64,000 bases of DNA from Membranipora membranacea (Eukaryota > Bryozoa > Gymnolaemata > Cheilostomatida > Membraniporidae), in contig OU612067.1 in assembly GCA_914767715.1 (NCBI GenBank), forward strand, positions 14,513,001 through 14,577,000. Direction: 5' to 3'. Position numbers and translations under genes: made by a program. Of the stretch, positions 17,704-64,000 are shown piece by piece. Position 1 is the first letter of the stretch, and the number at the start of each line of letters is the position of its first letter. Below the pieces are notes generated by a model. The model was given only the letters and a program-made list of their open reading frames with translations, searched no databases and was not told the origin of the DNA.

Positions 17704-17759
17704 CACTTGGTGAGGGTTTAATGCGTATCAATTGGCCTGGAAAATAATTATCACTCTTG

Positions 17760-19785: not shown

Positions 19786-20153
19786 CCTCTGCTTGATTGT
19801 GCAATAACTCCCGGAAGAAGGTTTACCCGGCTAACCAAGAGTGAAGTGATCGCAACCTTGTATAACTTTTTAGAAGCATGGACCATGTTTTTGTTGAGTA
19901 AAGACAGTGTGGATAATTGAATGTCGACAAGGTGTCATGGTCGATTGCAAAAATGTAAATATAGGAGTAGCCAGCCACTAGAGCCTATTGATTCAACTTA
20001 ATATGATATGATATTTCAGATGCAATAAAATTGGTATAAAAAAACGGGGCACTCAATATGGGCTAAATTTTTTGTATCAGAACTGGGGTTTCGGGCTTGG
20101 AATAGTGGTTGGAAAATATATTTGGACTGAGCAGGAATTACAAATTATCTAGC

Positions 20154-21483
20154 ACTGGGCTTTGGTTGGAACCCAGGTGTGCTCCGACCTGCCTGCAAAC
20201 AGAGAGCAACCTGGCGCAGATATTGCGGCCTGGCCACTAAGGCAACAAATTTTGCCGACTATGCTCCAGGATGTTGCTTGCGACAAGACATCTGATTTAA
20301 TTCAACCTTCAATTTTAATCTGATGTAATAATGCTATAATACATAAATATCATAAGAAGCAACAAGTCTTGAGACACAAAGGTAATCCTCAGGTTTTGAT
20401 ATTCTAAAATTACATTGCCTTTAAATACTTTGGAAAAGATAAACAAGGCACAACAGTAACAAATTCTTTCCCTGTAATGAAACACAGAGACTGCAATACA
20501 CTGGTTGTTTACAAATAAGGATTAGAATGAGGGGATTAAGTGATGATAAGCAAATTGCTTGGGGTAGAAGGCTAAGCAAGATTATGCCTTTAATACTCAA
20601 ATTAAAGTAGTTTAATCTCTGCAGAGTGAAAATCAAAGTGAGTCTGAGTTAGATCTAAGGTTTTACAAACATAGGATTAAAAGCTTGGCCCTCGCATAAA
20701 AGGCAGGCAGAGCGAGACAGGAAATCACAGTCAGCCCACTGGCTGTAGCGCAAACAAGTCATCTCTCTGACTTGTGTATGAGTTGTACTATGCTCAATGT
20801 GGTGAATTTGAGTAGCGAACGAGTGGCACGAGGGGCGGGTGCCTTGACGATAGCGACTTTGCGCCGATGAGTTGATGGAAAGCAAACCTCCCTGCACTGG
20901 TTTGGCTTAGAGTATAAGCATGAGAGTGATGGGGCGAACATTGTTGCACTGAAACAATGAAGAGTTGGCAGCCTCCCTGGTTGCGCAACAGCGTAAACAC
21001 ACCAATTATGTCAAACCACCGAAACTGACAAAATGCACTGAGGGATCGATGAGATTGATTGAGATGCTCAGCAACACACAGGGGTGGCTTCATGCTGCTG
21101 GGGCCGGCCATGAGGAGGTTGTACTAGAGAAGGCCTCGAAACAGCGTTTGACTCATGGTTTCTAGCTGAAGACCTGTGTGTTGTGCAGTGGTACGCGCAC
21201 CACTGTATGTTGTATCTCCCCCAAATAAGATTTTCTTGAGGGATTAGAAAATTTACTCTGAGAAAACAATGTCTGTAATTGCTCTAACTGATATCTTCAT
21301 CCAGCAGAGGTCTCAATTGTACTTGGATCGTTTCAATGCACTGCGTGAAGAATTGCTTCCAATTTTGTTTGGAGGCCATCTCAGATTTGTTGTTTATTGA
21401 GGCAGCCCACATGTTTGGCTAACCGAATCCTCAAAAGTAACAACATTATAACTTGTTGCAGTATAGATGCAGTCCCAGGGCAC
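20154..21483 (+). repeat. Segmental duplication copy 2, interrupted
   Basis: Matches 19204-19785 along its whole length apart from two insertions: one of about 45 bp near 20322-20366 and one of 702 bp at 20520-21221. Ends again at CAGTCCCAGGGCAC (about 21483). The copies lie about 0.4 kb apart in direct orientation. Confidence 0.8.
20520..21221. mobile_element. 702-bp insertion with 8-bp target duplication (unclassified)
   Basis: Comparison of the two duplicate copies defines the insertion exactly: CAAATAAG occurs at 20512-20519 and again at 21222-21229 but only once in copy 1. An 8-bp duplication fits hAT-like or other DNA transposons. However, the ends (GATTAGAATGAGG... and ...GTTGTATCTCCCC) show no clear terminal inverted repeats, no poly(A) tail and no TG...CA ends. 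Open frames on the minus strand resemble nothing I know. Confidence 0.65.
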
Positions 21484-26709: not shown

Positions 26710-26743
<34 letters not shown>

Positions 26744-35700: not shown

Positions 35701-38696
35701 ATTAGTTTTTGAAACTCGATTGTGAAAGCAGAGCGATTCAAATCTGGCATCTGACAGCATGTTACACGACTGTGCAGGTATATGATGAAATTATTGCGCT
35801 GCTGCGCTGAGAGCTGGTTGAAAGCCAACACATAGTAAATTAAAGGTCGAGTGTTAAACTAAAACCTGGTTACATATAATTAGATATAGATCTCAGAGTT
35901 TATTATCACAGCTAGCTATTATTACACTATTATTGGTCTGCTGTACAGATTGAGCCAAATCAGCCTGGTTATTGGTAGAAATAATAAATAAACCTTAAGC
36001 GAGAAAGTTTTCACTGGCTGAAATGAAATTGTTGAATTGTTGAATTCCCAGCTTCAAATAGTGATATGGTTTTCATTCAATTCATTCATTCAACGTAATC
36101 AAAAAACCCAGTGAACCTTTTTTCCGCTGAGTATGTGGTAGTACCATGGGGCCTAGAGGGGGATAACTATCAGTTATGTAGCAGGCACACAGGTTTTTTT
36201 ACAAATACATAAATATTTAACTAAAACTGTAACTGTAACAATAACATATTCACAACCTTACAAATTACACTATTTCTACTTCATATTTAATTCATTTTCA
36301 CTAGATTCCAATAAATGCCTCAAACAAACTAAGGCCAGTTTGCTGGGTGTGGAAATCTGGGGGGCTCTGACTACTATATGGCATAAACAATCATAGTATA
36401 AACAATAATAAGAAGTGTATTTTGATTTTCTATAGGTCCAAGCCAAGTGTTTTACCCATAAAGTTATTACAAACAGTGTAGTATATACATTATTTAGCCA
36501 TCCTCAATCAGCTATCAACACTCAATTTTATCTCGACTGCCTTTATTGTGTATATCATAAAGTGCTGCAGCAGAGAATGGCGTTGAGTAATAATCATGGT
36601 CTGTGTTGATTGCTGTCGTAAGTAGCTAGAAGTGGATTAAAATTTGTTATGAATGTCTCAAGACTTGGGGATAATACTTTCACAGTTTTATTATTATATT
36701 TTTCACTGGACAGTGGATTATAATTTCACAGCTGGTAGCACCTGAGCACATAGGCTTGATCTTCAATCCTCCTATCAACCTGTGGTGCGATCAAATCCGA
36801 CATTCTCCTGCTATTCTTGTACATACACAACAAAAAACAGCATACAGATTCTGAGCACCGTCTCACAGGAGAGTTTGATTTTACCTATAGAAAAAATTGT
36901 GGATGCATTTTTAGCTAGTTCGAGCCCCCCAGACTCTGCCCCCCCCCCATCCGGTGCACTTTAGAAGGAGTTCACTGCATGATTTTTGCAGCCAAATAAC
37001 TGAAGCTTCGATGAAAATAGGTTTTCAGATCCGGGTAAACAGTCCGTGTTTTTATGGCGGATTTTAGTGGACCGGAAAAAGCCTGGGAGTCAAAATCAGC
37101 TGATCCGAGAGTGATTTAAAAGAAGCTTTCACCACTGCACCACATGACTGTTGGAACAATGATAAGGAATTAGGGCAGGTTTTGATAATTTGTTAAATGG
37201 CAAGGCCAACACTCGACAAAGCAAATAACAAGCAAAGTTATCAAAAGTTAAAAAGACATCCTAAGCACGTTATTGACTACAGTTAGGGAATTCCATTAGA
37301 CCGGATCTGGCCTTGAAGGCCCTCTATTGGTCTGAAAGACCCGACAGAAAATTCGCCTTGAATAGTTAAATTCAAAGCTAACTCACATGTACCTTTTACT
37401 TTATATAGACTCCCGCCTTCACAGACGAAATTTCTTGTTAGCCGCATCATAAAGTTGCCCCTAACTAGCCAAACCTAGCTCAAGCTTATATTTACAAAGG
37501 GATTCCGTGCAGTGTACACATCTCTAACGGATCAGGCAAGTCTAAGACACGCTCACACCAATTGGAAAACAGAAGTCCATAAGAATGGTAAATGTTGCTG
37601 TAAAACCACTGAAGTAGGCTAACTGTCACGGTCGTCACAGCAGTACAGCATCAGTTCATATGCTAGCTTAACAACATAAAGTGTGCAAACTTAGGTAATA
37701 TTTATTCCTCTGTGATTCCGGAACTCTGTGCTCTTGCGCATCTCAGACGAATCAGACAGGTCTAAGTCACAATCATACCAATAACGATAGGCCCTTTAGA
37801 ATGGGGCACTGTAAAAGCCCTGAGGACTGCCTCCAGGGTGAATATGGCATCAATTTGTTTGCTAGCTTACCTTTGCATGGAGCTGTTTAGTTGACAGCAT
37901 GACAGGTTTTGTGAGATTGGACTCCTCATATGAAACTTGTACAGACTCTGTATGAGAGCTTTATTATTCATCAGAACATTCCTGTAGTTTGAGAGCTTAG
38001 ACTCCAGTGCATTCCCAATCTGTATACAGAGGAGGACACGATTACTAATAAGAGCTGTGATAACTTACATACACCTTGACATAATGCATAATTTAAATTT
38101 TATTATAATCACCTATAACCACAAAAATTCATTTTAATATCATGCCTGACATAGTTTCTCAATAATGTGTTGTACTCTAAATATCATAATAATGTTGTGG
38201 TAGGGGTCCCGTCGGCCAAAGGGAAGGGGCAAGAGTCTGGGGGCTCAGGCTATTGTAGGAGTAGTGTCTGTTAGGCTGACAATCTCTACCCCCAAAACTT
38301 TGGGTTCTATTTCACTTCATCTCAATATAAGAGAAATAGGATGATAGAGCCAATAGAAAGGCTCTGGATGTCTAGTATCAAGCTTTTCAAGATGAAGACA
38401 AAATAAGTTCAGCTGAAAAACTGTAAGACCCGGTCCTGCATTTAGGTTGCTATCCTGAGCATTTGCAAGATGGCCATTCGAACCACTAAAAGATTGGAAA
38501 TACAGAGAAGAGATTGCCTTTGTTTCATTCTGTGGAATAATTCACATAGGCTTTGGAGAGACATGATTCGGGCCTTGAGGCTACTCAAGAAGACTTGATG
38601 AGTCTTCAATGTTAAATCATAGAGGCTACTCACACGAGATACTTTAGTTTGTATGTCTTCATCCTCTTCGAAATACTGCATGCCATCAAATACCCC
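24005..38696 (-). CDS. CACHD1: CACHD1-like VWA/Cache-domain alpha2delta-like membrane protein (5' end incomplete)
   Basis: CACHD1 is a single-pass surface protein related to alpha2delta calcium-channel subunits. Exons, 5' to 3': 38696-38634, 38019-37871, (36810-36742, tentative), 35132-34988, 34508-34322, 33984-33844, 33517-33449, 33286-33189, 32916-32778, 32174-32025, 31739-31610, 31158-30992, 30628-30395, 30006-29901, 29525-29331, 28905-28683, 28251-28153, 27839-27684, 27287-27055, 26408-26263, 25585-25328, 24625-24366, 24163-24005. Phases join throughout, giving about 1190 residues (human about 1270). In order: N-terminal helical part with a CC pair; VWA starting VVIMVDISS, with a degenerate metal site (DISSV rather than DxSxS); first Cache (GVTGIDLSLEDL); second Cache (AAVVGLDLPANYIQ); a Cys-rich module with ECECPCECPL; a transmembrane segment GAILGLVLIIALSVYCY; a cytoplasmic tail with SSDHGYSTM. 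About 40 residues before the VWA domain and the signal-peptide exon are not securely found. A hydrophobic stretch at 39353-39236 (ILVVTLLVTTYI) is a candidate, but its phase does not join. Confidence 0.85.
24630..24790. repeat. AT-rich minisatellite in CACHD1 intron
   Basis: Imperfect tandem units built on AATAATATATAAATGTAATATAT with ATCCAAATA or ATCGAAATA spacers, lying just upstream of the second-to-last CACHD1 exon. Confidence 0.7.
25004..25121. mobile_element. Foldback MITE with 11-bp flanking direct repeat
   Basis: A roughly 35-bp inverted repeat (AGCCCTGTTCACACGGCCAC... at 25018-25050 and its complement at 25080-25113) with a short loop. GCTAACCAGGG occurs on both sides (25004-25014 and 25111-25121; the right copy overlaps the arm), suggesting an 8-bp target duplication AACCAGGG. 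It abuts TIR-MITE copy C directly. Confidence 0.6.
25119..25300. mobile_element. TIR-MITE family copy C
   Basis: Begins GGGTTCTTTCAATTAAGAAC and ends CTCTAATTGCAAGGCTC. The interior TAAACGATTTGGGAACGAAT and ACTTTGAGCAACATGACAGT segments match copies A and B. Located in the CACHD1 intron immediately after the foldback element. Confidence 0.55.
26712..26741. repeat. (TA)n microsatellite
   Basis: Uninterrupted TA dinucleotide run of about 15 units in a CACHD1 intron. Confidence 0.95.
29821..29874. mobile_element. 34-bp palindrome flanked by 10-bp direct repeats
   Basis: AGGTTCAGAC occurs at 29821-29830 and 29865-29874 and brackets an almost perfect palindrome (AGCCTGTCTTGACA / TTGTCAAGATAGGCT). 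The arrangement looks like a tiny foldback insertion with target duplication, in a CACHD1 intron. A related GCCTGTCATGACAAGC occurs near 38795. Confidence 0.5.
32505..32715 (+). mobile_element. tRNA-derived SINE with conserved core, in CACHD1 intron
   Basis: Starts AGGAGTAGGAGG like the copy at 8383, has an A-box-like TTAGTTAGTTAGGG, a B-box-like GGGTTTTAATCC and the shared core (GTGTGCTCCGACCTGCCTGC, AAGAGCAACTTCG). The body includes an extra CATCAATCGATG hairpin. Oriented opposite to the host gene. Confidence 0.6.
34677..34816. mobile_element. MITE with perfect 25-bp terminal inverted repeats
   Basis: GGTAGTAGCATTTCATTATC... at 34677-34701 is perfectly complementary to 34792-34816. The 140-bp element has no coding capacity. 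No convincing target duplication is visible. It lies in a CACHD1 intron. Confidence 0.65.
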
Positions 38697-39606
38697 CTGT
38701 AGTGAGAAGATATAAGGAGACAAATAAACCATCCTTTCATTAACTGAAGACATACATAAACATCTACATCAAACATGCAGCATTACTGAACCTAGCCTGT
38801 CATGACAAGCTTCGTTCGGTGGTGGGGGGGGGACAACTGTTGTAGCTGTTTTGTACTTGGGGAGGATTTTTACATGGTCCATAATATGGTTTTCCACCCA
38901 ACCTTTTTCCAGCACTATAAAGCACCCCAAAATTGACAATTACCGTACAAAAGTCAAGTTAATACTTCTAAAATCTGTGTACTTTTTGAATGAACATCTG
39001 TTCTATTTTGCGATTTTTTCCCTTACTTAAAATTAATGCTGTCCCTGGCTCCTGACTGATTATAACAGGCTGCAGTATATGTGGTAAAAACATATTTGGC
39101 TACATATCAACTGGGCATCATATGATATTTACACAGCCAGCTCTTGTAATATAAGATACTACAGAATGCCTAGTTGGATACTTCAGAAAAATTAGGCTTT
39201 CAGTATAAGTATCAGTTGTAGGGAAGGGGTCTTACTCATAGTTTTGGTATAGGACATGATGCCATCGATGACAGCGGGCTTCCTGGGCTTCACCAGATGA
39301 AAATCCGGTGTTATATAGGTCGTCACCAATAACGTTACTACTAGTATAATTGTCTACCCCTGAGGCAAGTCCTAGTAGGGCTCTGCTAAGTGGAACCTCA
39401 GGCCTCTATTGCATTGCAGGTATTAATGGTATAACCATTAGCAAAAGAGCACCAATACAGCCTGAGTGCCACCGTAATAACATTACTTGATATCGAGTGC
39501 AAGCAACAAATTATTGCATATCTCAAATGAAAGCGATTGAATCAGCCTTCTAGTCATAGTTTTGTTGAAGCTTGATTTGTTTCAGAAATCAAAGTATCGG
39601 ACTCAC
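38697..39606. other. Gap between CACHD1 and importin-4 pseudogene
   Basis: No secure exon. It should contain the CACHD1 promoter and first exon. A minus-strand hydrophobic stretch at 39353-39236, followed by a GTAAGA donor, could encode a signal peptide, but it has no in-frame ATG and its phase (1) does not match the next traced exon (phase 0). No importin-4 C-terminal half is recognisable. Confidence 0.35.
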
Positions 39607-42567
39607 CGAGAGCTTGTAGCTGAATCTCTTTCATCTCGGTGGAGTCGAATCCTGAGAGGCACAAATTGAAGTGGTCCATTATTTGTGTGAAGTATGGGTT
39701 GAGATTTGTCTTTGCTGCACATGCTTTAAAATGAGAAGAAAGTATGTGACTAAGTGACAGTTCCAACGGCATTTAAACTACCGTTCTTGAGCAAACTAGA
39801 CTAACAGCTCAGCCTACATTTTATATTAATTAATTGTATAGATTTAATTCTTGTAAAGAAGTTGTTTGCCCATTGATGAAGAGGAGACCATCCTTAAAAC
39901 GGAAGTTATATGGGAAAACTGTGCGTTGTTTAGTGAATAAACTACAGTATAGTAAAGTGTGACTTGTCCTCACCTATAGATGCTATACAACTGAATGAGA
40001 ACTCTTTAAGTTTCATCGAGATTTCTGATGTATCTGCATTATCTAACAGACTTAGTAAATGTGTCATCAGTTCTGGAAGGAATGGGAACACGTCTTTCTC
40101 TGCAAAAAAAAAAGTAACAACATAATATTATTTTATCTCTAAATCAAAATGATTCTTGAGGGACAGCATTTACCTAAATTGGGTACATAGCATCCATAAA
40201 ATGTTACACTTACTTGTTAGTGATATGATCCGAGCAGCCCTCTGCTATGCCACATAACCAGCCTTTCTCTCACTAGGTTTATCACTAGTCAGAGCTTGTG
40301 AAGAGTTCTTTACTACATGTGTCACTATCTTCTCTGGAGGTAGGTGTAACGCCAGCGAGTGCATTATCTGATGAATTAAAATTAGGTTATGGTGACTTGT
40401 CTTGTCTTATGAGGAGGACGGAGTTAGATGATTGAGTAAATCAGTCAGAACATAGGCAATATCATATTATGGTGTTAATGCAAGCTTCGTACTTTTATTC
40501 ATTTTCAAACAATACAATATCGGTAAAACTTTTTTTGAATGCATGACAAGATATTACGTCTTGTCTTATGTGGGGGGAGGGTAGTGGTGTGAGACCGTAC
40601 CCTCAAGAGAACAGGTGATTGACACCCCTAGTTATCCAATACTTCTAACAGTGTTGTTTTACGGAGATACATGTAAGGGCATACAACTCCAAACAATCAG
40701 GTTCACGGTATCTGATATTCCAAACTACAATTATTCACTGATGAGAGGATCTGTTATTTTTTGTTAGCTGAAAATAGTTAGCGAACAATTACTTTATTCG
40801 ACCCCATTGTTGTTTTGTATGTAGTGAACCTAAGGTGGGAGCTACATCTTATGAAGGTGAAAGTAGGTGAGAGTAATCTAACGTGAGAGTAGCCTGGAAT
40901 ATCAGATTCATTGCCAAATTGTAACCTTTCGCAATATCAGTAAGTTATATAGTTATATAAATAATACTTATTAAATGTCGTCCAGGGACTATTGCCCAGA
41001 ATAAAAGATGAAAAGGATGACTAAAAAAATGCTAATTGAATAAATTAAAAAATATATCAAATTATTAAAAATTAAATTATTAAAAACTAAATTATTTAAA
41101 ACACTTACCCTGGCAGCATAAGAGGCAGCTTTCTCAGTCTCCTCACTATCCTCCAGATCCTCCTCATCATCATCACAGTGACACATGAGAGAGAAGACCA
41201 CGTCTAGTATCGGCTGTATCATATTCATCTTCTGTATAGCCTTCTTCTTCATACTAACCCGCCAGCTCACACCTTCTAATGACTTCACTCGTACTGAGTT
41301 GGGCTCTTCCTCTGTGGTTGCCAGCTAGACAAATAATGCTATGATGTCAGAGATGGTGTATTATATAATAAGGTGGTGACTTGATGTGGCGTGTTTTTGA
41401 ACATCCCACAATGCAGATATATTATATGACATGGTAACTGTATATCAAGTACACTATCGTTAATAGGCATATTTGGTATAGACTTTTATGCAACCAGCAC
41501 AACCACACAAAGCATGTTAATGAGTATCTCACAATGCAATTTTGAAGACTTCCTAGATTCAGATAGAAATAGATTAAGTGATAACAGGTACAAGATTGAC
41601 CAGATAGTACAGGGAATTCCAGGTGAATAGGGAATAATCCTTATAATAATCATTATCAGACATAGCTAGCTACACTTAATGTTTGTGCGACGAAAGATAT
41701 AATATAGGATTTAATTTTCTTGCCTTTGACGTTGTTTAATTCTGCTGGTAGAACATTGGAGGGGGACCACTTTGAGAGCAAACAAATAGCTACATATTGA
41801 AGGAGTCCATATTGCTATATTTGCTAAAATAATGAAGCTGCCAGTCACTTTGTAATGCAAAAGGACAGAAATTTGAATGCTAAAGTTTTTAGAGCTACGG
41901 TTTGCATATAAGTTTATTTACTTACCCCCAGACAGAAATCTACAATAGTTTTGACATGAGGATGGAGTATCGGCACCTCACAATTCAGCAGGGAGTCAAA
42001 TATCTCCATAGCTTCACATGCTTGCTCCTGTGGCAAATATAAGTTCATCAAAACTAGGCAAAATTAAATTACAAAATACCTCAGTTTAATTGATCGATCT
42101 TTGGGTGCACATAACTTATCAACACCATAATGTTTTCATTGTATTCTCATTTACTATTATTAGTTGTTTGTGCAACTATTGTCGAGTCTTCAGTAGAAGA
42201 TTATAAGAGACAACAATATTTATTCTTTATAAACTAGTTATCCCAAATACCGATGAGGAGGAGACATTAGAAAGAGTTGGTAGTTTGGGGGAATCTTTAT
42301 CTTAGCTAGCCCAATCTTCACTAGTTATTTTTGTTAATACTCCACTTTATTCACTAATCAAGCATATTGACGGCAATGACTTGTGCATATAAGACATATA
42401 AGACATGGTACATCAAGTAGTCAGTCCTATAAGATTTTGAGGGTGAGTAAATGTTAGCTAACCAAAAGTTTCACTTTTTTGAGCAAAAATTTCCTACTAC
42501 AAACCTCTCCTGCAAGGTACATTAACTTTAGAAACTTCAACCGACACAAAATTCAGTAGTTCCACCC

Positions 42568-42681
42568 CTAGATCAAGTTTGATTCATTTGCCTGCGTTTG
42601 GAGTTGCCCCCTCCACTGGTCATGCTGCGTGACGAGTGGAGGGGGCCAACTCCAAACGCAAAAGGATCAAACTTGTTCTAG
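42568..42681. repeat. Long hairpin (about 47-50-bp arms)
   Basis: CTAGATCAAGTTTGATTCAT... (42568-42617) pairs with 42635-42681 with few mismatches and a 17-nt loop. It looks like a foldback MITE in an intron of the importin-4 pseudogene. Confidence 0.6.
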
Positions 42682-44024
42682 TTGGACCAGGGTTTGACTC
42701 TCACAAACCTCATCATGAAGAGCTAGCAGTTTGATCACTTCCAGCACTCTGGGTATAAGTTCTGACTACTGCTTCTGAAGAGTGAGAAGAATTTTTAGAG
42801 TTAATCAATGCAATCAAACAGAAATAGATGGATATATAATAACCTTGATAAGTTCTCATAATACAGCAAAGGTAAACTCCTGCAGCAGTCATAATGCAAT
42901 CAAAGGCTAGTTTGAGACAATTAATTCGCTAAAGATTCGCCAAACTTTTGACAATCTAACTGAAAGTAGTGCCAGCCAGCATTCTTACTACGATGAAGTT
43001 TGTTCATTAAGATTATCAAATAGCGATATACTGTTGATTTTTAAACCTACCATTTCTACTGAGGAAACTTCAAATACCATGTTGTTTGAGCACACAATCC
43101 GAGTATGGTAGCCAGTAGAGGCTGAAAGTTCTCAGGTGCTTCTGATGATACAGTCTTCAACACCAGCATTGATATCTACAACATATTTAAATGGTAATCA
43201 ATACTTCACCTTGAATATCATAGTATGAAATAATAGGTGATGATTTATTTTTTAGTTGAATGCACAACAGCTGTCTTCCCAATGGCGGAGTTTCAAATTT
43301 TCCAATTCTGCACTCAGGAAAAAAATGTGTGCTGGAATTAGAATGTGACTTCCCCAGTAAGGATGTGATAAATGGAAGGAAAATGAACACCTGGAGGGCT
43401 GGAAAAATCTATCTAGGATGTACTCCTCCAATCACCTGGGAGCAACTCGTGCCCTGATACCAGAAAAAAGCTTTTAGGGCAATAAGAATTGAGTGTCATA
43501 TGAAACATCACACGCAACGCCAGCTTCTAGTGCCCAAACATGACAACAAAAATCGATTTGACATAGACAAAAAGAGCATAAACCATTCAACCAGACAAGC
43601 AAACCGAGTTTGAGACCTACCTGTCTTTCCAGCGGGTTCTCACTCTTCACAAACGTCTCAGGGAAGGCCAGAAGCTGCGGCCATTCATTAATATCATCAG
43701 TGGTGTGCCACCGTCCGGATCAGCTGGGCTAGAGAATTCCGCACTGGTGATCTAAATATGGCATTACATGTAAACCAAGTTGTAACACAAAACTTCGACA
43801 AATTACTTCATATAATTAGCTGCGGGTCACCCAATATAATTATTAGTATTTGTGTACAAAGAGATTGGGGCTTAAACACTCAAAGGGATATTTTATGGAA
43901 CGTTGCCATCAACACAGTGATGAGAGATGCCAAGCAACAGAACAAGGCCATCTGGGCTATAAAGACTAGGTAAGACCCAGCATGTATGATAATATTTCTT
44001 TATGTACGCTAATGCCTGTTGGTA

Positions 44025-44085
44025 AATCTTTATAGACCAAAGGGACAATACTTGTCCTTTTGGTCTATAGCCTAAAGATTTTTGT
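44025..44085. repeat. Hairpin around ATAGACCAAAGGGACA
   Basis: AAATCTTTATAGACCAAAGG... pairs with ...CCTTTTGGTCTATAGCCTAAAGATTT across a very short loop near 44056. Probable foldback element. Confidence 0.5.
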
Positions 44086-45189
44086 AGACCAACAATTATT
44101 ACGCAACAATTTCCTTTATTCTCAAGGGGATCCACGAAAGTCGTCCTGTAATAATCATAACTTACTGTTCTTCTTTCACTAGTGTCTGAAAGATACTTTC
44201 TTTCAGTCTGAAAAAGACAAAACATATGTAACATCTGATCCTGCATGAAGTAAATGTAAGTAAAAATCATTCATACAAAACCGCAGGTGACTCAAAAGAA
44301 TAAAAGTGTAAAAAAAACTTAATATCCTAGACTTATCCAAGTAGCGACTATTGTTCAGAATATTATGTACTAACATACCAGATGTAAATTACTACTATCA
44401 GTTGGAAAGCTCCACAAATTTTGCCGAGGGATTAATCTCATGAGTCATGAGTCAGCCTTCCAAGAAATACTAAGATGAGCATTTGACAGGTTTATTTTCT
44501 AAAAATTTTGCATGTTTGGTATGATTTATGTTTGTTCTGTATATGCCTACACTCAGATTAAAACAGACTCAAAACAAAACAAACACATAGACTCACCAGT
44601 CCATTCTCCCTGGACTCACCCATCATTGACCTCATCTGCCAGAATTATCCACTGTCTGTGTTTGGATATCTTACTTCTGAGCAGCACTGCAGCATACTGC
44701 CTAACCTAATAAATATTCAACATAAACTCTAAATATAATATATAAGACAGAGATTGTTTACTACATTTTTTTGGTCCTACTCCTGCGCAGGTCTATGACA
44801 GCTTGTTGCATTATTGTCTGCTTGGCTACATCAGACAGCAGGTTAGCTTGTAATAGTAGAGCACATCAGATATTACATATTGGCTTCCCATATATTTGAC
44901 AATTTCCCAGTAAGGTATTCCAGAACACAAAGAAATGATTTTTGAGTTTCAATTTATCCACAACGTAGTGGGTAACTTGGCTCCATTAACAGATGATAGA
45001 TATTTTATCCTTTCTGCTGAGCTATCAGAGCACCAAAAGTTGCTGATGATCCCCCATTTTGAAATATTCAAATTAAGATGTGATTTAATTCATATATCTA
45101 CCTGAGAGTTTTGGGAGGAAGTCAGCACGACGCAGAGTCCTGGGACAAAGCTAGGATCTGGTGAGATTTTTTCAGTTCTTCTGTGGCCT

Positions 45190-51874: not shown

Positions 51875-54800
51875 GGTGAGGGTTGTGAGTGATGAGACTA
51901 TGGCTGGTGTGGGAGACGAGATTGATCTGGAGGTTCACGATGGAGCAGATAGCATGACAATGTCTTCAGATGAAAAACCAGTCACATCTCAAAATGAAGC
52001 TTGTAAGTATATTTTAGATACAAGACACTTTTTGTTTCAACTTGCCTAGTTGTTGTTGATGAAGGTTTGCAATAATTGAATAATTGAAACACAAAACACA
52101 TTCACCTAAACCTTCACAAATTTTGGGTATTTTATTGCTATTCTCATGCACAAAGTTAAACTTGTGTCTGATGCTCAAATGACCCGGTGACGCATTTTAT
52201 AGTTTGAACGCCAACATTTTATCTGTTTCCAACTGTCACAAACCCATCCGGTTGAATGTATCACAGCCTGACGACTTTATGGCAGCAAGCAGTCATATTC
52301 CAAACCCATCCAGAATGGCTTGTAATGCGTGAAATGCCAACAGCGACTCCAACCAGATGGACTTGTGAAAGTTAATTTTGCTGTCTAAAAGTCAACTGGG
52401 TGCTTGTGCGACAACTGGCAATCACAAACATAGGCATCCGGTTGGGTTTTATCGCAGCGCTCTTATCCGTATGGGTTTGGTACTGTAATGTTTGCGGTTT
52501 CAAACCAACATTTTATGATGCTTGATATGAAGACCTAAGTCTCCTCAAGTATGGAAGTAGTTGTATTGTAAAATTATGTTGATTAGATTGTGACTTTTGT
52601 GCCTTCTCCAGTATCCACACATGTATTCAGCGATAAAAATATATCACACGACCAGCGCATAACAGCTTTAACAATATGGCTATCATTTTTGATTGTTTCA
52701 TTAATACACAATGACTTATCGGAATTGTTGAACCATCACTAGGGGTGGAATGGATCAGGGTTAGGCAACCTCGGATCGGATATCGGATCGGTCCTTAAAT
52801 TCAACCTCGGATCGGATCCGGATAACGCGTACAAGCGCTAAGTCCCAGCAGCTGTACTTTTGCACTATAATATACGGTTAAGGTAATTGAATACATGGAT
52901 AAACAGCGTCAACAATCTTTTCCCTGAACCATTACCCTAATTTAAATGTGCATATATCTGCTTGGATATAATACTTTACAAGGAGCAACTAATCACTCCA
53001 ACAGCCACGGCGCAAGGATCACACAAACAGATTATTTGAAAGGGTCATTTAATGAGTACAAAGATCCCTTGACTACGAGCATTTGTGCTTAGACACTCAA
53101 TTTGCTAGGATCACTCAAACCCCGATGTTTATAATCACTGAGTTTCAACAAACCCCCTGCTCCTATTTCCCTAACTCTCTGCTGTGATTAGGATAGGAAT
53201 TGTCCTCCTACTTTGATGAAGAGGATAACCTTGCAAATCAAGCTAGATAGTTTGTTACAAGGAACATCATTGGACAAAAAATAATGTCTTATTTACAGCG
53301 ATCTGAGTAAAGATGTTTCTCTTAATTTCAGCAGAAAAAAACCATTCTGCTTGCAGGATAGCCTTGTGACATAGTCTATCTCTGCAACACAGCAGTGGTG
53401 GCGCTGCCTTCCATCAAGAAAGGCAATTCCCAGGGTTCAAGGTTATGAGATATCAAAACCAGTGTTCCATTTAGGCTCAAATATTTCCAAATTACGGGTT
53501 TCCATTGTTTTCCCAATTTTGGTACTCAGACTAGGTGAATTAGTTCAAGCCCTATGCTGCAGAGACGAACCACACTGATCACGTGATATACTATTGCATG
53601 TATATCTCTGATCGATAGAGAGTGAATTAATTCACTTAGCTTGAGTGCAGCTGAAATTCAGTATTTAGGAGACAGATGGATGATTACCCAAACTTTTGGA
53701 TATACACTTATCATTTTCTCATTCTTTGTTAAAATATTCTAATTTATATTTAGAAAATCTGATATCACCTTTTAACAGTTTGAGAAGAGCATTTAATACA
53801 TGTTTTTGACAAGAAAAGTGACATCGAAACTGTGTATTGCTAGCCTAAGCTCAGCAGAGAGAACTAATAATGCAGAGCTAGGTAAATCTGTTTCGATCAT
53901 GTCTGTTTCATCAAATTAAAGTTGTCCTCTTTTTTAGCCAAATGTAGGTGCTCAATATTTGCGACGGAAGCTCTATCGATCAGAGATACACATACTAATA
54001 GTGTAATCTCGAAATCAGTGTGGAGACGAACGTGTGCCTCAACAGTTCGCACATGCGCAGACTGAGAAAAAACACATCAATCAAATTTAATCAACAACGA
54101 TAAGATACCTAAGAAAATGAGATAGGTATTGAATGCCAATTGATCACCACTGAGTGCTTTCATCCAAACTCAAGTATCTTATCTGAACTACAAATTAATG
54201 ACTATCATACTTCCTCCCTTGTCATTTTTAGCGGATAAATGATGCTAAGTAAGTGTTGATTAAAAACGATCATCTTGGATCAGACATAACACATGTCATA
54301 TCCATCCGGTTTGTGGTTGAATCCGAGGTCAAATATCCGAAATTCAACTCCAACCTCAAGAGGTCGTTCCACCCCTAACCATCACGCCACTTTTCCTTAT
54401 CAGTAAGTTCTAAGCAGACACTGAGGTGCCACTTTAGTTTGAAAGTTCTGTTATCAAAAGATTAGCGCAGCTGATCTAACATAGTTATCCATGTGTAGCC
54501 ATGATTTTACAGCCAAATTTGTGAGCAGACAAAAAGGCAAAAATCTGCCACACAAGAGTGGTTAGCATACCTCTTTGGTATTACTGTAGAGATTTCAGTG
54601 ACCTATATTATAACACTCAAAGACTACTGCCAGTCAGAGAAATTACGCTCAGTGATTTCTGAAAAAATATCTAATAGAGGCTTCATATCCAGCTATATCT
54701 TTGGTATCATTACCCTGATTTTTATAATCAGTTTTCCTTTGCCTTGCACCTCCACCAAACAGAGTTGTCCGCTCAGTGTGTATGAGGAGACAATTTTTTA

Positions 54801-57800
54801 CAAGAACTTATGGCGTTGCGCCCATAGACAAAATGATCTATGGTGATAACACTGACACTGTAGCCATGAACTTCATCTACCTATAGTGAAAAATTTATTA
54901 TGATTGAAATTTTGCAAGCAATTGAGATAGAAATTGAAACCACAGCGGCCTCACAGGCAAAAGTGTGCATATTGAATTCCGAATAGCTCAAAACATAGTA
55001 TTATGGGGCTGCAATCTCAGCGATATCTACATATTTACCGGCTTACTAGTTGACACTTTTGATGTCATCACCCACTGCATTAATTTCATACCCTTATCTT
55101 GAAAATTGTGCAAGTTATTTGCCCAATGAGGTAATAATTCTGAGATTAAAGCCTCAATTCGTTATTTTAGACTACACTGAATTCAATTAGCACAAATTTG
55201 CCTGAGTGGAAGCAGTAGTTTGAATATTCTTTTTTTTTAACTCAGTCTCTGTGCTTATTGTGCTGTATATCTCCTCTAGATTTCACAGATCGCTGAGCCA
55301 AAAACTTGTATCGTATAGCCATAGACATCTAATATCAACCCTCTATCTCCTGCTCCGGAATAGGTACAGCAAATAAATTTTGCACAGTTTTTTAGTGATG
55401 ATGCTGGCAATGTTATTGATGGAAATAGACGGGTTAACATTGGTATCATAACCTTAATTATAATTATTATATTTTCAGATTACAGTGTCTGGTATAGACA
55501 TAGTTTGGAAACTGAGAAAATCGACTTCCCGCGACATGATGATGAGAACGTGCTTACCCGGTTATCCTTGTCCGATCTGACAGCTGCTACAAGTGGCCTC
55601 CATATCACACATATGATTATCAGAGATGATATCCCACAAACTCTAAGTCAGTTAGCTCCTAATCTGAGACGCCTCAAACTGAGAGAGATACCACATTCTT
55701 ATCAGCTACAAAGGTGAGTGTACCGTAGGTTTGCAAAGGATTTTAGAGTCATGTTGGAGATCCTGGTACAATGTGTGCGTTTTAGTGCATGATAGGTAAG
55801 CTCCCAAGTAACATGATAAGTGATATTGTAATGTGTAGGTAGAGGCGTCTAGAAGACAAGCAAACAGGGAAAAATTTGTTAGTAGCAAATAAATAAAAAA
55901 TACAAGCTTGTTAACACCTTAAGAACTCATTGCTTTAAAAGCAATGGTGACAAGGTTCGGTTGTTTCAATGATTTGGTACTGGGTAAAACATTGGAAAAA
56001 TTTTAACTTTAACCTGGCCTTGAGGCTTATAATTTATGGTTATCTTATCACTGTTTATGAATTATATAGTACAACGCGCCTCATTGCGAGTTATGCTAAA
56101 TTCTATGATTTTGCCTATCATAGAAGAGCTTTAGTACCCATATCACCTGTGACAGGCGGTTAATTCCTCATTTGACTTCACCTTCACCTTCACAATTTTT
56201 TTATACAGTATCTGTTCACTGACAGCACTAGAGGAGTTAGATATAAGCGGCAATAAGAGGCTACAAACATTACCTGATGATATAGATACAATGAGGTCAC
56301 TTAAGGTGATAAAGGCACTGGATTGTGATCTGTCTCATATACCTGACAGGTGAGTCATTTTTCTTTTATCAGTATAAGGCTAATTTATAGTTATCAGTTA
56401 TCGCTTTTGAAGGTTCTCCGAAATGAACTGCCCACTTTTGCTTTCCTCCCTTATGTCGACGGGTGTTCCAAATTACGAATAAAAAATGTTATCAGATTTT
56501 GGTGAGTGATGACGGTGATACAATCAATAATAATATTTTTAAGTGTGATATGGATATGTTTTCTATGATAATCAGTTATCAGCGAAATCTATTTACCCGT
56601 TGATAATTTACCTATAGCTATCTTGATGTCAGTGATATAATTGTTAACTGTGACATCTAATTGTTATCTGACAGAAGCGACTACAACCTCATCTTACCTC
56701 ACATTGTGTATATTTATATTACAGTATCTGTTCACTCAAAGCACTAGAGGAGTTACATATAAACGGTAACAAGAAGCTGCAAAAATTACCTGATGATATA
56801 GGTATGATAAGTTCACTGACAAAGTTATATGCACGTGACTGTGATCTGTTTCATATACCTGACAGGTGAGTAGTCTATCCACTGCCGTTTTTAGGTGAGT
56901 GGTGATAATGAGTGATATCTTCGTCGCACACTCCTGATCACTTGCCTTGTTTGGCTTGGCCTACAGCTTGTGTCTGGCGGCTCTCCTCTTCCATCTTGGG
57001 CGCTTCATCAACAATAATATTCTGCATAACCTTTGGGCCTTGTAGCTGCACTGGTCTACTCATTGCCGTGGAATGTTTGCTGGCTTTCTGCAATTTGCTA
57101 TCAGTTGCATTTTTCTGACAGTGGTTTGATTTTTTTCTGTATGGGGTCTTTCGTGTGATATGTGGCACTGCTCATCAGTGCAGATTTGGGTGATGAAAGG
57201 CTAGGCCATTTCTCCAGTGTTTTTAATGACCAAAATTGTGCATGTTAAATGAAAATACATGCATTTTTTGTTACTCAAATCGGTAACTGTAACAATATCC
57301 TGAATATATTTAACACCTATAAATGGAGCACTAAGGTGAACATTATTGACTTACTCAAATGATATGGATTAATGCTAGCTAGCCTGGTAAGACAGGATGA
57401 GATGGATGAATGATTATAGGGTCGAGATTCAATGACAACCTGATAGATGTTACACATATTTTCTCTGACTTTTGAGGTTCATGTATATAAGCATTATTTG
57501 GGCGGGAACTTTGACCTGCAGGCGTTATTGCCTCCATGTTGGAGTTTCTGGGCTGATCTGTGGAGCACCCTACTTCATCATTCAGAGCCAGACAATACTC
57601 TCATACCGAGTATATTCTTGATGACCATATTGCCAAAATATATATACACCTACAATTATATCATTCACACAGACTCCTGTGTGTTGGTTATTGTCTTCCT
57701 TTTTTATTTATGCACTTTGTTTGCGGGTCATTGGTTTGAAAGGGTCAACTCCATACAAAAAAGTGCTTTGTTTATTTCCTCATATTTTCAATGAAAATCA

Positions 57801-60800
57801 AAATCTCCTGTGCACAGCAGTACAAATAAGGTGTGATCACTTTCACCAGAGTAGCGTGATGTGCTCTTGAGGGTTCTCTGAAAAGAACTGCCCACTTTTG
57901 CTTTCCTCCCTCATGTCGCCCTCATGTCCAAAAAAAACAAGGATGAATAATTCATTTGGTTGAACATTTCCAGAAAACATTGAAAATGACCCAGAATGAA
58001 AATGACCTGATGAAATTGACCTGAGAATGAAAATAAACTCAAGTTGACCTTGACATATATTATACCGTGCAAGGAGTTTAAATCAGTCTACAGGTAAACG
58101 TACATGAGGACTCTGAATTGTCACAAACAATTGGCTTGGGGGTTATCTTTTCTCGTTGTATGAAGAGATAACTCCAAAGTAATGTGTCCTGTTTGTAGAT
58201 TCTTGTGTATCCTGTAAATTCACTGTTTACTATTATAGTATTTTAAATTGGTTTAGTTTAAAGTATGAAATTTTCCTTGAAATGCTATAGAAGTGAGGTT
58301 TTTAATCCATGGTATGACCAATCAGCCTGAATATAACTCATATGCTGTGTCCACACATACATGCCTGACCCAGAATTCAGGAGGTTCCTGCGGACGATCT
58401 CCAAACCTGGAGAACCACTCTGCATCCTGGAGTGAGGATGCAGTTCAACCGCATGTAACAGAGCACACAGACATCCACTTCACCATTACCTACATTCAAA
58501 CCTCGTCACATCATCATCATCATCTTTGAAGCGGAGAGGGTTTTCCTCTCTTGGGTACCGGGACCCATATTACTCATGCCGCACCCTATACCCATGCCCC
58601 ATGGAATATTTTTAAGTGTGATTTCGAATTGTTTTCTATGATAATCAGTTATCAGCAAAATCTATTTACCCGTTGATAATTTACCTATAGGTATCTTGAT
58701 GTCAGTGATATAATTTATAGCTATGCCATTTAATTGTTATCTGTCAGAAGCGGCTATATCCTCATCTTACCTCACATTGCGTATATTTATATTTCAGTAT
58801 TTGTTCACTGAAAGCTCTAGAGGAGTTACATATAAACGGTAACAAGAAGATACAAGCATTACCTGATGATATAGGTATGATGAGTACACTGACAAAGTTA
58901 TATGCAGGGAACTGTGATCTGTCTCATATACCTGACAGGTGAGTCTTTTCTCTGTTATCAGATTTTGGTGAGTGATGACGGTGATACAATCATTAATAAT
59001 ATTTTTAAGTGTGTTATCGAATTGTTTTCTATGATAATCAGTTATCAGCGAAATCTATTTACCTGTTGATAATTTACCTATAGGTATCTTGATGTCAGTG
59101 ATATAATTTATAGCTATGCCATTTAATTGTTATCTGTCAGAAGCAGCTATATCCTCATCTTACCTCACATTGTGTATATTTATATTTCAGTATTTGTTCA
59201 CTGTCAGCACTAGGGCAGTTATCTGTACGAGGTAATAAGAAGCTGCAAACATTACCTGATGATATAGGTATGATGAGTACACTGACAAAGTTATATGCAT
59301 GGGAGTGTGATCTGTCTCATATACCTGACAGGTGAGTCATTTCTCTGTTTTCAAATTTTGGTTAGTGAAGACGGTGATATAATCAATCATTAATAATGTT
59401 TTTAAGTGTGATATAGAATTGTTTTCTATGATAATCAGTTATCAGAGAAATCTAATTTCTCTTTGATAATTTACCTGTATGTTGATGTCAGTGATATAAT
59501 TTATAACTATGCCGTCTTATTGTTATCTTCAGAAGCGGCTATATCCTCATCTTACCTCACATTATTTATATTTCAGTATTTGTTCACTGAAAGCTCTAGA
59601 GGAGTTACATATAAACGATAACAAGAAGCTAGAAACATTACCTGATGATATAGGTATGATAAGTTCAATGACAAAGTTATATGCATGGGACTGTGATTTG
59701 TCTCATATACCTGACAGGTGAGTCATTTCTCTGTTATCAAATTTTGGTCAGTGATGACGGTGATACAATCATTAATAATATTTTTAAGTGTGATATCGAA
59801 TTGTTTTCCATGATAATCAGTTATCAGCGAAATCTAGTTACCCGTTGATAACTTACCTATAGGTATCATGATGTCAGTGATATAATTTATAGCTATGCCA
59901 TTTAATTGTTATCTGTCAGAAGCAGCTATATCCTCATCTTACCTCACATTGTGTATATTTATATTTCAGTATTTGTTCACTGTCAGCACTAGAGGAGCTA
60001 CGTATAAAGGGTAACAAGAAGCTACAAACATTACCTGATGATATTGGTATGATGAGTGCACTGAAGGTGATAAAGGCATGGGACTGTGATCTGTCTGATA
60101 TACCTGACAGGTGAGTCATTTCTCTGTTATCAAATTTTGGTGAGTGATGACGGTGATACAATCATTATTAATATTTCTAAGTGTAATTTCGAAATGGTTT
60201 CTATGATAATCCGTAATCAGCGAAATCTATTTACCTGTTGATGATTTACCTATAGGTATCTTGATGTCAGTGATATAATTTATAACTATGCCATTTAATT
60301 GTTATCTGTCAGAAGCGGCTATATCCTCATCTTACCTCACCTTGTCTATATTTATATTTCAGTATTTGCTCACTGACAGCACTAGAGGAGTTATATATAG
60401 ACGGTAACCAGAAGCTACAAACATTACCTGATGATATAGGTATGATAAGTTCACTGACAAAGTTATGTGCATCGGACTGTGATCTGTCTTATATACCTGA
60501 CAGGTGAGTCATTTCTCTGTTATCAAATTTTGGCGAGTGATGACGGTCATACAATCAATCATTAAGAATATTTTTAAGTGTGTTATCGAATTGTTTTCTA
60601 TGATAATCAGTTATCAGCGAAATCTATTTACCCGTTGATAATTTACCTATAGGTATCTTGATGTCAGTGATATAATTTATAGCTATGCCATTTAATTGTT
60701 ATCTGTCAGAAGCGGCTATATCCTCATCTTACCTCACATTGTGTATATTTATATTTCAGTATTTGTTCACTGACAGCACTAGTGGAGTTATCTGTACGAG

Positions 60801-63800
60801 GTAACCAGAAGCTACAAACATTACCTGATGATATAGGTATGATAAGTTCACTGACAAAGTTATATGCATCGGACTGTGATCTGTCTTATATACCTGACAG
60901 GTGAGACATTTCTCTGTTATCAAATTTTGGTGAGTGATGACGGTGATACAATCATTAATAATATTTTTAAGTGTGATTTCAAATTGTTTTCTATGATAAT
61001 CAGTCATCAGCGAAATCTATTTACCCGTTGATAATTTACCTATAGGTATCATGATGTCAGTGATATAATTTATAACTATGCCAATTAATTGTTATCTGTA
61101 AGAAGCGGCTATATCCTCATCTTACCTCACCTTGTCTATATTTTTATTTCAGTATTTGTTCTCTGACAGCACTAGAGACGTTATCTGTACGAGGTAACAA
61201 GAGGCTACGTACATTACCTGATGATATAGGTATGATGAGTTCACTGACAAAGTTACATGCATGGGACTGTGATCTGTCTCATATACCTGACAGGTGAGTC
61301 ATTTCTCTGTTATCAAGTTTTGGTGAGTGATGACGGTGATACAATCATCGATAATATGTTTAAGTGTGATATCTAATTATTTCCTATGATAATCAGTTAT
61401 CAGCGAAATCTATTTTCTCATTGATAATTTACCTCTAGGTATCTTGATGTTAGTGATATAATTTTTAACTATGCCATAAAATTGCTATCTGTCAGAAGCG
61501 GCTATATCCTCATCTTACCTATCATTGCGTATATTTATATTTCAGTATTTGTTCACTGACAGCACTAGAGGGGTTACATATAAACGGTAACAAGAAGCTA
61601 CAAACATTACCTGATGATATAGGTATGATGAGATCACTGAAGGTGATAACTGCATGGGACTGTGATCTGTCTCATATACCTGACAGGTGAGTCATTTCTC
61701 TGTTCTTAAATTTTGGTGAGTGATGACGGTGATACAATCATCAATTATATTTTTAATTGTGACATCGAATTGTTTTCTATGATAATCAGTTATCAGCGAA
61801 ATCTATTTACCCGTTGATAATTTACCTATAGGTATCTTGTTGTTAGTGATATAATTTATAACTATGCCATTCAATTTTTATCTGTCAGAAGCGGCTATAT
61901 CCTCATCTTACCTCACATTATGTATATTTATATTTCAGTGTCTGTTCACTGACAGCACTAGAGGAGTTACATATAGACGGTAACAAGAAGATACAAACAT
62001 TACCTGATGATATAGGTATGATAAGTTCACTGACAAAGTTATATGCACACAACTGTGATCTGTCTCAGATACCTGACAGGTGAGTAATTTCTCTGTTCTC
62101 AAATTTTGGTGAGTGATGACGGTGATACAATCATCAATAATATTTTTAATTGTGACATCGAATTGTTTTCTATGATAATCAGTTATCAGCGAAATCTGTT
62201 TTCTCATTGATAATTTACCTCTAGGTATCTTGATGTTAGTGATATAATTTTTGACTATGCCATTTAATTGTTTTCTGTCAGAAGCGGCTATATCCTCATC
62301 TTACCTCACATTGTGTATATTTATATTTCAGTATTTGTTCACTGACAGCACTAGAGGAGTTACATATAAACGGGAACAAGAAGCTAGAAACATTACCTGA
62401 TGATATTGGTATGATGAGTGCACTGAAGGTGATAATGGCATGGGACTGTGATCTGTCTCATATACCTGGCAGGTGAGTCATTTCTCTGTTATCAGATTTT
62501 GGTGAGTGATGACGGTGATACAATCATTAATAATATTTTTAAGTGTGATATCGAACTGTTTTCTATGATAATCAGTTATCAGCGAAATCCATTTACCCGT
62601 TGATAATTTACCTATAGGTATCTTGATATCAGTGATATAATTTATAACTATGTCATTTAATTGTTATCTGTCAGAAGCGGCTACATCCTCACTTTACCTC
62701 ACATTGTGTATATTTATATTTCAGTATTTGTTCACTGTCAGCACTAGAGGAGTTACATATAAACGGTAACCAGAAGCTACAAACATTACCTGATGATATA
62801 GGTATGATAAGTTCACTGACAAAGTTATATGCATCGGACTGTGATCTGTCTTATATACCTGACAGGTGAGTCATTTCTCTGTTCTCAAATTTTGGTGAGT
62901 GATGATGGTGATACAATCATTAATAATATTTTTAAGTGTTGTATCGAATTGTTTTCTAAGATAATCAGTTATCAGCGAAATCTATTTACCCGTTGATAAT
63001 TTACCTATAGGTATCTTGATGTCAGTGATATAATTTATAACTATGCCATTTAATTGTTATCTGTCAGAAGCGGCTATATCCTCATCTTACCTCACATTGC
63101 GTATATTTATATTTCAGTATTTGTTCACTAACAGCACTAGAGGAGTTATCTGTACGGGGTAACCAGAAGCTACAAACATTACCTGATGATATAGGTATGA
63201 TAAGTTCACTGACAAAGTTATATGCATCGGACTGTGATCTGTCTTATATACCTGATAGGTGAGTCATTTCTCTGTTATCAGATTTTGGCGAGTGATGACG
63301 GTGATACAATCATTAATAATATTTTTAAGTGTGATATCGAATTGTTTTCTATGATAATCAGTTATCAGCGAAATCTATTTACCCGTTGATAATTTACCTA
63401 TAGGTATCTTGATGTCAGTGATATAATTTATAACTATGCCATTTAATTGTTATCTGTCAGAAGCGGCTATATCCACATCTTACCTCACATTGTCTATATT
63501 TATATTTCAGTATTTGTTCACTGACAGCACTAGAGGAGTTATATATAAACGGTAACAAGAAGCTACAAACATTACCTGATGATATAGGTATGATGAGTTC
63601 ACTGAAGGCGATAACGGCGTTTGACTGTGATCTGTCTCATATACCTGACAGGTGAGTCATTTCTCTGTTATCAAATTATGGTGAGTGATGACGGTGATAC
63701 AATCATTAATAATATTTTTAAGTGTGATATTGAATTGTTTTCTTTGATAATCAGTTATCAGCGAAATCTATTTTCTCTTCGATAATTTACCTATAGGTAT

Positions 63801-64000
63801 CTTGATGTCAGTGATATAATTTATAGCTATGCCATTTAATTGTTATCTGTCAGAAGCGGCTATATCCTCATCTTACCTCACCTTGTCTATATTTATGTTT
63901 CAGTATTTGTTCACTGAAAGCTCTAGAGGAGTTACATATAAACGGTAACAAGATGCTACAAACATTACCTGATGATATAGGTATGCTAAGATCACTGACA
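51875..64000 (+). CDS. Tandem-exon leucine-rich-repeat protein, partial at window end
   Basis: I do not recognise the family. Exon 1 is 51875-52002: ATG at 51900, acidic Ser/Met-containing sequence, and the frame is also open upstream, so an earlier exon is possible. Exon 2 is 55479-55713, with an LRR-like C-terminal half (ITHMIIRDDIPQTLSQLAPN). Then 16 LRR exons start at 56209, 56725, 58798, 59191, 59577, 59970, 60363, 60760, 61153, 61546, 61939, 62332, 62725, 63118, 63511 and 63904. Each complete one is exactly 141 nt, phase 2 at both ends, encoding S-ICSLxALEEL...GNxKLQTLPDDIG, then a second half with DCDLSHIPD. Each exon thus holds two LRRs of about 23 residues. The LPDDIG/LSHIPD pattern recalls SHOC2/ROCO/plant-intracellular-type LRRs. 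The window ends inside unit 16, so no effector or membrane domain is seen; about 850 codons are visible with no stop. No signal peptide is visible, suggesting a cytoplasmic protein, but the 5' end is uncertain. Confidence 0.8.
52732..54385. mobile_element. Non-autonomous hAT-type element, 1638 bp
   Basis: The element 52740-54377 begins TAGGGGTGGAA and ends TTCCACCCCTA, matching terminal inverted repeats of the hAT form (YARNG start). It is flanked by a perfect 8-bp duplication ACCATCAC (52732-52739, 54378-54385). The left end carries several CGGATCGGAT repeats (about 52772-52825). No transposase frame is present. It sits in intron 2 of the LRR gene and contains a block near 53572-53640 that also occurs, inverted, at about 9890-9960. 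Confidence 0.8.
56380..58620. repeat. Insertions in the introns of LRR units 1 and 2
   Basis: The intron after unit 1 is 375 bp and that after unit 2 is 1932 bp, against about 252 bp elsewhere. Both contain the same foreign fragment (GAACTGCCCACTTTTGCTTT, at 56425-56444 and again near 57890). In the second, the ordinary intron sequence resumes near 58609. The inserted DNA of intron 2 has no recognisable gene; it includes a short AAAATGACC-type tandem patch near 57975-58030. Confidence 0.6.
58798..64000 (+). repeat. 393-bp exon-intron tandem array of the LRR gene
   Basis: Fourteen consecutive units (3-16), each a 141-nt exon plus an intron near 252 nt. Spacings are 393, 386, 393, 393, 397 and then nine in a row of exactly 393. 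Introns are nearly identical: GTGAGTCATTTCTCTGTTAT at the 5' end, a GATAATCAGTTATC mini-palindrome mid-way, and ATATTTATATTTCAG before each exon. A short indel distinguishes the 386 and 397 units. Confidence 0.95.

Follow-up and report, generated by a model that had tools for sequence, protein, structure and literature searches.

What kind of gene is built from a long row of leucine-rich repeat (LRR) exons that all have the same length? The question is raised by a 64,000-nt stretch of the genome of the bryozoan Membranipora membranacea (the window; contig OU612067.1, here C3, positions 14513001-14577000, in an assembly of 339 Mb and 18 contigs). A preliminary description of the window found such an array and proposed it as a candidate for an undescribed recognition system. 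We suggest, with a probability of about 0.7, that the array specifies the ligand-binding solenoid in a predicted 2140-residue LRR-ROC-COR-caspase receptor, and that the sensing surface of this receptor has been diversified by exon exchange and selection. The gene that holds the array is called paralogue B and is one of four tandem genes (A-D) at 14.49-14.74 Mb of C3.

The exon array and the predicted gene

A pattern search of the window bore out fifteen complete exons of 141 nt and a sixteenth that is cut by the window edge. Each of the fifteen carries two LRRs and has phase 2 at both ends, as first described, and Pfam LRR models divide the consensus peptide (SICSLTALEELHINGNKKLQTLPDDIGMMSSLTKLYAWDCDLSHIPD) into one LRR of 24 and one of 23 residues. 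All 15 frames are open, the acceptor is always AG, the donor is GTGAGT in 14 exons and GTGAGA in one, and the 15 peptides are all distinct. Start-to-start intervals are 516, 2073, 393, 386, 393, 393, and 397 bp and then eight times 393 bp, the last of these reaching the cut exon, which makes 393 bp the spacing in 11 of 15 cases. The run of nine unchanged intervals reported earlier is a run of eight within the window; the ninth lies right after the window end in the genome sequence. To call the introns almost identical was generous: among the 13 core units, which are those with regular introns (unit, exon plus intron; 397 aligned columns), introns differ pairwise by 3-12% (mean 7.3%). A 27-base motif of the unit occurs 11 times, compared with none in 100 shuffles, which excludes chance.

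What protein does the array belong to? When the locus was followed to the right in the genome assembly, the LRR exons continued and gave way to ROC-COR and caspase exons (Table 1). The predicted gene starts at window position 51900, extends past the window, and contains 23 LRR exons (all intact), a Roc domain, a weak COR signal, and a caspase, with the LRRs N-terminal of Roc. Its coding sequence of 6423 nt specifies 2140 residues, and the terminal stop is the only one. Roc scores 31.1 bits (Pfam cut-off 27), and this region contains the GTPase motifs GQSRAGKT (the P-loop), DFGG, and THRD. The ROC-COR part of P0002, a relative retrieved by protein search, matched by tblastn at 23% identity (E 1e-15). 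The two caspase exons, when joined, cover positions 15-232 of the 233 in the profile and score 47.3 bits (cut-off 21.4), compared with about 21 bits for each half scored separately, which argues for joining them; the joined exons of paralogue C score 47.5 bits (same cut-off, positions 17-232). A search with a profile of two sequences (best E 0.002) places SHG and QACQ opposite the catalytic His and Cys of caspase-8, and both motifs are unchanged between B and C. Membership of the NACHT-LRR (NLR) family was rejected, because no NACHT or NB-ARC domain was detected at E 0.1 in the three plus-strand frames of loci L009 and L010 and the switch found is Roc.

How might such a protein work? From the N-terminus, it would begin with a short region and continue with 23 two-LRR modules; the ROC exon would add a final LRR and a Roc GTPase with COR, and a caspase-fold protease would complete the chain. 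Sensor, switch, and executioner would then be parts of a single polypeptide, in the manner of an intracellular receptor for danger or non-self that acts directly through a cell-death protease. By analogy with the families concerned, the concave LRR surface would bind a foreign, danger, or non-self molecule, which might come from a pathogen, a symbiont, or a conspecific. Binding would act on ROC-COR, altering its nucleotide state or its dimerisation, and caspase domains would thereby be brought together and activated by proximity, leading to a proteolytic response, probably cell death or inflammation, in what may be an immune or allorecognition role. Since the LRR exons are 141 nt long with phase 2 at both ends, the frame survives whether a module is gained, lost, swapped, or skipped. 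The sensor would be diversified by exchange between units, and probably between paralogues too, together with selection on concave residues.

Does the caspase belong to the same protein? It could come from a gene of its own, adjacent to the LRR-ROC-COR gene and duplicated along with it, in which case the receptor would end at the stop of the ROC exon. The ROC frame of gene B does meet a stop just after C3:14588495, the linking exon requires a GC donor, the exon junctions are predictions, and other caspase matches lie far from any of the 68 ROC exons listed across the genome. However, the apparent stop falls within a GTAAGT donor that is conserved in A, B, and C. From the ROC exon through the 69-nt exon to the caspase, splice sites and phases (1/1, 1/1, 0/0) are identical in these three genes, lengths in the ROC-COR-caspase tail differ by multiples of three, and all three share the same C-terminus. 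In B and C the linking exon has kept its 69 nt, although the introns on either side of it have diverged.

The same arrangement recurs across the genome. The ROC-COR exon as query gave at least 68 matches (68 of 379 candidates scored), all with E < 1e-180 and 66 of them free of stops, and the caspase query gave at least 151 (139 of 479 candidates scored). Linkage was counted between the 68 ROC-COR places and 111 listed caspase places; the weaker caspase matches were omitted, all of them judged by eye to be more than 8 kb away from the ROC-COR places listed. Of the 68 places, 49 have a same-strand caspase no more than 8 kb downstream, at a distance of 0.47-3.08 kb, compared with one of 68 in the upstream control. 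Order and strand are the same in 49 of the 50 listed members at 51% identity or more, and a downstream caspase is found in none of the 18 below 51%. We consider a separate caspase gene unlikely.

Diversification of the concave face

Where do the units differ? Among the 13 core units, mean difference is 11.9% in exons and 7.3% in introns, and per-column diversity is 0.119 and 0.075, respectively (bootstrap P 0.005). Ten concave positions (9, 10, 12, 14, 15, 33, 34, 36, 38, and 39) were defined from the LRR consensus xxLxLxx, the set being made after the alignment had been viewed. Replacement differences (pN) reach 0.321 at concave codons compared with 0.067 elsewhere (permutation p 0.00005), with silent differences (pS) of 0.107 overall; intron differences stand at 0.073. 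Replacements at concave codons exceed both those at other codons and the changes in introns four- to fivefold. The concave pattern is also present in paralogues A (p 0.0002), C (p 0.0012), and D (p 0.0012) and in the arrays of two further family members. In a ten-exon array at 19.1 Mb of C3, concave pN is 0.304 compared with 0.062 (permutation p 0.0002), and exons and introns diverge by 12.2% and 8.2%. In six in-register exons of an array on contig C9, tested with one exon shorter by a codon omitted, the values are 0.276 and 0.036 (p at most 0.00005).

Codon site models, in our own implementation, detected a class with omega > 1 (M1a/M2a, 2dlnL 17.1, p 2e-4; positions 14, 36, and 38), and M8a/M8 (14.6, p 1.4e-4) added positions 6 and 12. 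Star and intron trees gave stronger values, and with separate trees for the two halves of the exon the LRR2 half was significant (p 6e-4). PHI tests indicate recombination among units (p 0.001-0.04). Since recombination makes any single tree wrong here, the permutation test is safer evidence than the site models. Recombination agrees with the repeated exchange proposed earlier, but the idea that this was very recent does not hold for the gene B array, because its introns differ by 7%. Unit similarity did not correlate with distance within the array, giving no signal of spatial homogenisation. Deaminase-type hypermutation was rejected as a source of the changes, since C>T and G>A show no marked excess in introns (changes per sites: C>T 7/35, T>C 17/104, G>A 6/38, A>G 10/69). 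Altogether, concave-face diversification here and in five other arrays, with a GTPase switch and a caspase in the predicted protein, supports well the recognition role first proposed for the locus.

Could the gene instead encode a house-keeping or developmental LRR-ROCO scaffold, with LRR variation reflecting relaxed constraint in a repeat? Polymorphic receptors are not what human ROCO proteins are mainly known for, and repeats often evolve by internal duplication. The structural positions fit this possibility as well: 16 positions set from the consensus carry 12 replacements compared with 18.8 expected, just borderline more conserved than under neutral decay (P 0.055). A set of 12 invariant structural positions, with no replacements, was dropped as support for constraint because it had been picked after the alignment was seen. 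However, relaxation predicts the neutral rate at concave codons, and the rate observed is more than four times the intron rate in several arrays. The family is also large and clustered in tandem, and a scaffold is in our view quite improbable. Tandem repeats are hard to assemble, and paralogue D has near-identical multi-kb blocks and has lost ROC-COR, but an assembly artefact, which the preliminary description had considered, or a decaying pseudogene array is so improbable that we dropped it: the 13 core units all differ, by at least 16 of 397 aligned columns, and so are not a single copy multiplied by the assembler, none of the 15 exons has a stop (P = 0.018 if they were decaying neutrally) or a damaged splice site, and the predicted coding sequence is uninterrupted.

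Several findings weigh against the proposed receptor. Its architecture is a prediction from genomic DNA. The frame is open 5' of the predicted ATG, so the real start could be further upstream and the gene could be incomplete on this side. COR-A (13.7 bits, cut-off 35.3) and COR-B (12.6 bits, cut-off 27) are collinear and in the correct order, and both fall below threshold. Single-sequence phmmer found no PDB caspase at E 0.001, the two-sequence profile did no better than the value given above, and the 69-nt exon relies on its predicted GC donor. No caspase lies near 19 of the 68 listed ROC-COR exons (every one of the 18 below 51% identity, plus a single one at 51%), which may have diverged or carry other C-termini. 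Paralogue D has no ROC-COR, the LRR1 half alone was not significant in the codon model (p 0.16), and the conservation of structural positions is borderline, as noted.

Paralogues, family, and neighbourhood

How variable are the arrays of the cluster? nhmmer found 118 exon matches in A-D, 110 of them intact and 141 nt long (A 31, B 23, C 17, D 39). These encode 81 distinct peptides, with columns 14, 36, 12, and 38 the most variable. Given these exon counts, differences in array copy number between individuals are likely, one genome having been seen. The eight non-intact matches, six in A and two in D, are truncated or broken exons and one exon shifted by an extra codon. Truncated exons lie at C3:14496225, 14496797, 14497368, and 14497939 in A, with a period of 571 bp, and at C3:14726701 in D; in each, intron sequence that has no acceptor leads into a remnant of about 30 nt from the 3' end of the exon.

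Some exons are identical in DNA between genes: one is common to A and B, and two, adjacent in both genes, are common to C and D. All lie within arrays, at different positions. Exon exchange between genes is the likely explanation, and a shared ancestral block may be an alternative source. A 5007-bp self-match at 98.7% marks a recent block expansion in D. Identity within genes is 0.875 in B, 0.888 in D, and 0.785 in C, and B-D identity is 0.878, which matches the within-gene values; concerted evolution by gene was thus not shown within the A-D cluster. The 19.1 Mb array is the sole one clearly more alike internally (0.879, compared with 0.739 to B). At C3:14742763-14744118 in D, the last LRR exon passes into sequence that matches the first caspase exon of B. 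The loss of ROC-COR from D looks like a deletion, and D could be a decoy made of LRRs and a caspase remnant, or a pseudogene.

The two coding exons ahead of the array of gene B have counterparts among the paralogues, the first in C and D (97% and 94% amino-acid identity; none found for A) and the second ahead of the arrays of C (91%), D (88%), and A (72%). No signal peptide was seen by eye in the first exon. No homologue of the second exon was found in the protein database, and its matches to the N-terminal 200 residues of the retrieved relatives were weak (best E 0.04).

How far does the family extend? The Roc profile gave at least 148 genome matches (150 of 372 candidates scored), of which 62, counted by hand, lie in single open frames of at least 600 residues. 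We examined the DNA upstream of three other family members. The member at 19.1 Mb of C3 has ten further 141-nt phase-2 exons spaced by about 378 bp, and the C9 member has seven LRR-exon matches spaced by about 390 bp, six of them 141 nt long with a GT donor. The third has no 141-nt LRR exons in the 7.4 kb ahead of ROC-COR. The ROC-COR matches at C11:3048919-3050820 and C1:30534585-30536492 lie in frames open over 2462 and 1634 residues, and some members may hold much more protein in one exon. The chances seem to us evenly balanced that these genes form a large, expanding family of single-chain receptor-executioners, in which tandem, interchangeable two-LRR exons are exchanged to give new specificities and the length and content of the arrays vary between individuals.

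The positions of the predicted exons and of the array are collected in Table 1. Two array introns are lengthened by additional sequence, the first by about 120 bp and the second by 1739 bp; the 56-bp piece of the longer insertion that recurs is in the first array intron, and no inverted repeats were found in this insertion. No RNA families were found in the window, the unit motif had no exact match in viral contigs, and the N-terminus of the gene had no match in phages. Between the first LRR-ROCO-caspase gene and the second there are exons similar to CACHD1 (VWFA and cache domain-containing protein 1) and to importin-4, on the minus strand at window 30000-45000 and also at 15001-30000. An arginine/glycine-rich open reading frame (SSERREREDYERRDRERDYRDDRVGSGERGG) is near-identical at window 3470-3892 and C3:14596175-14596552, downstream of A and B, so a larger segment seems to have been duplicated; a CCCH zinc-finger match lies close to the B copy. 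Downstream of C and D, the blocks C3:14686848-14697715 and 14755819-14766202 are 97-98% identical, which indicates recent segmental duplication. A TTATG microsatellite of 55 copies occupies window 11395-11669.

Table 1. Positions of the array and of the predicted exons of gene B
Feature	Sequence	Position	Strand	Details
First coding exon (predicted)	window	51900..52002	+	MAGVGDEIDLEVHDGADSM...; ends in phase 1; donor CTT/GTAAGT; from sequence and splice phase
Second coding exon (predicted)	window	55479..55713	+	LRR-like near its end; phase 1 to phase 2
LRR array	window	56209..63651	+	15 complete 141-nt exons plus introns
Array exon starts	window	56209, 56725, 58798, 59191, 59577, 59970, 60363, 60760, 61153, 61546, 61939, 62332, 62725, 63118, 63511		
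1739-bp insertion	window	56866..58604	+	second array intron; apart from one 56-bp piece, no other unit of the window matches it
16th LRR exon	window	63904..64000	+	first 97 nt only; window edge cuts the rest
Further LRR exons	C3	running on to 14578998	+	beyond the window
Three more divergent LRR exons	C3	14585002-14586010	+	
ROC-COR exon	C3	14586554-14588490	+	last LRR, Roc, weak collinear COR-A/COR-B
69-nt linking exon	C3	14588664-14588732	+	phase 1/1; predicted GC donor
Caspase exons	C3	14589542-14589966 and 14590162-14590572	+	C-terminus ...RKLGVL, stop

Comparison with known systems

Which known proteins come closest? A protein search with a frame spanning eight exons, a check proposed at the outset, retrieved 52 proteins. 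The best four (P0002-P0005) combine LRRs with Roc, three of them with COR as well; they are 35-39% identical to the spliced LRR model, with repeats mostly 46-48 residues apart. P0005 resembles gene B in its two-LRR period of 46/47 residues, a Roc above the cut-off, and a weak COR-A. It is 35% identical to the LRR model and differs in having a CARD-like C-terminus (21.1 bits, cut-off 23.9) where gene B has a caspase. PDB matches to the LRR part were generic (GSO1, LRRD1, SHOC-2). In human NLRP3, the switch is a NACHT ATPase and the caspase is a separate protein.

The exon layout, for which the preliminary description knew of no animal equivalent, is not unique. In human NLRP3, each LRR exon is exactly 171 bp long and holds two LRRs, and human LRR exon-length peaks include 141-147 bp (PMC6642158); brown algal ROCO genes have LRR exon arrays too (PMC11378527). 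NLRP3 therefore shares with gene B equal-length exons and two LRRs per exon, but its LRRs are of 28/29 residues (PMC6642158), whereas gene B has 141-bp exons, LRRs of 24/23 residues, a Roc GTPase, and a caspase in the same predicted chain.

Brown algal LRR-ROCO genes resemble gene B in their LRR-ROC-COR order, tandem phase-2 LRR exons, and diversifying selection at concave sites, and they have been proposed to encode immune receptors (PMC11378527). Alternative splicing was shown for them, and LRR-ROC-COR is the sole architecture that the available part of that paper reports. Their exons are of 72 bp with one LRR, a type that the bryozoan exons do not belong to, being 141 bp long with two LRRs in a gene with a predicted C-terminal caspase. 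ROCO proteins have been grouped into LRR-RocCOR proteins, the same with a C-terminal kinase, and DAPK1 with a kinase and a death domain (PMC6337361). Gene B is like the first group in having LRRs followed by Roc-COR, and the available text of that paper never mentions a caspase. Prokaryotic AP-GTPase conflict systems also place an AP-GTPase and COR after fast-evolving LRRs and have variable C-terminal domains; they differ in being prokaryotic, so that exon arrays do not apply (PMC8195603). In the NWD genes of Podospora, which are comparable to gene B, concerted evolution homogenises the repeats, four codons of the interaction surface are under positive selection, and the role is one in non-self recognition, but these are fungal genes with WD repeats and NACHT (PMC1805685).

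These features are already known from other systems, and what may be new is the animal LRR-ROC-COR-caspase combination. We found no description of such an animal family among the matches listed from open-licence literature. In a paper on sponge NLRs, the legend of one figure includes CASc and COR in its list of abbreviated domain names (PMC12909245), and related fusions may already be on record. If the predicted architecture is correct, recognition, switch, and protease would be united in one animal polypeptide, with a sensor built for rapid change, and a natural fusion of this kind would illustrate how caspase activity can come under the control of a ROCO GTPase. Array copy number, exon exchange, and exon skipping would make it a testable case for receptor diversity in invertebrates, which lack antibodies. 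Multiplied in tandem clusters, such genes would parallel the NLR expansions seen elsewhere, and there is an even chance that they represent a caspase-coupled counterpart of the NLR and brown algal ROCO systems.

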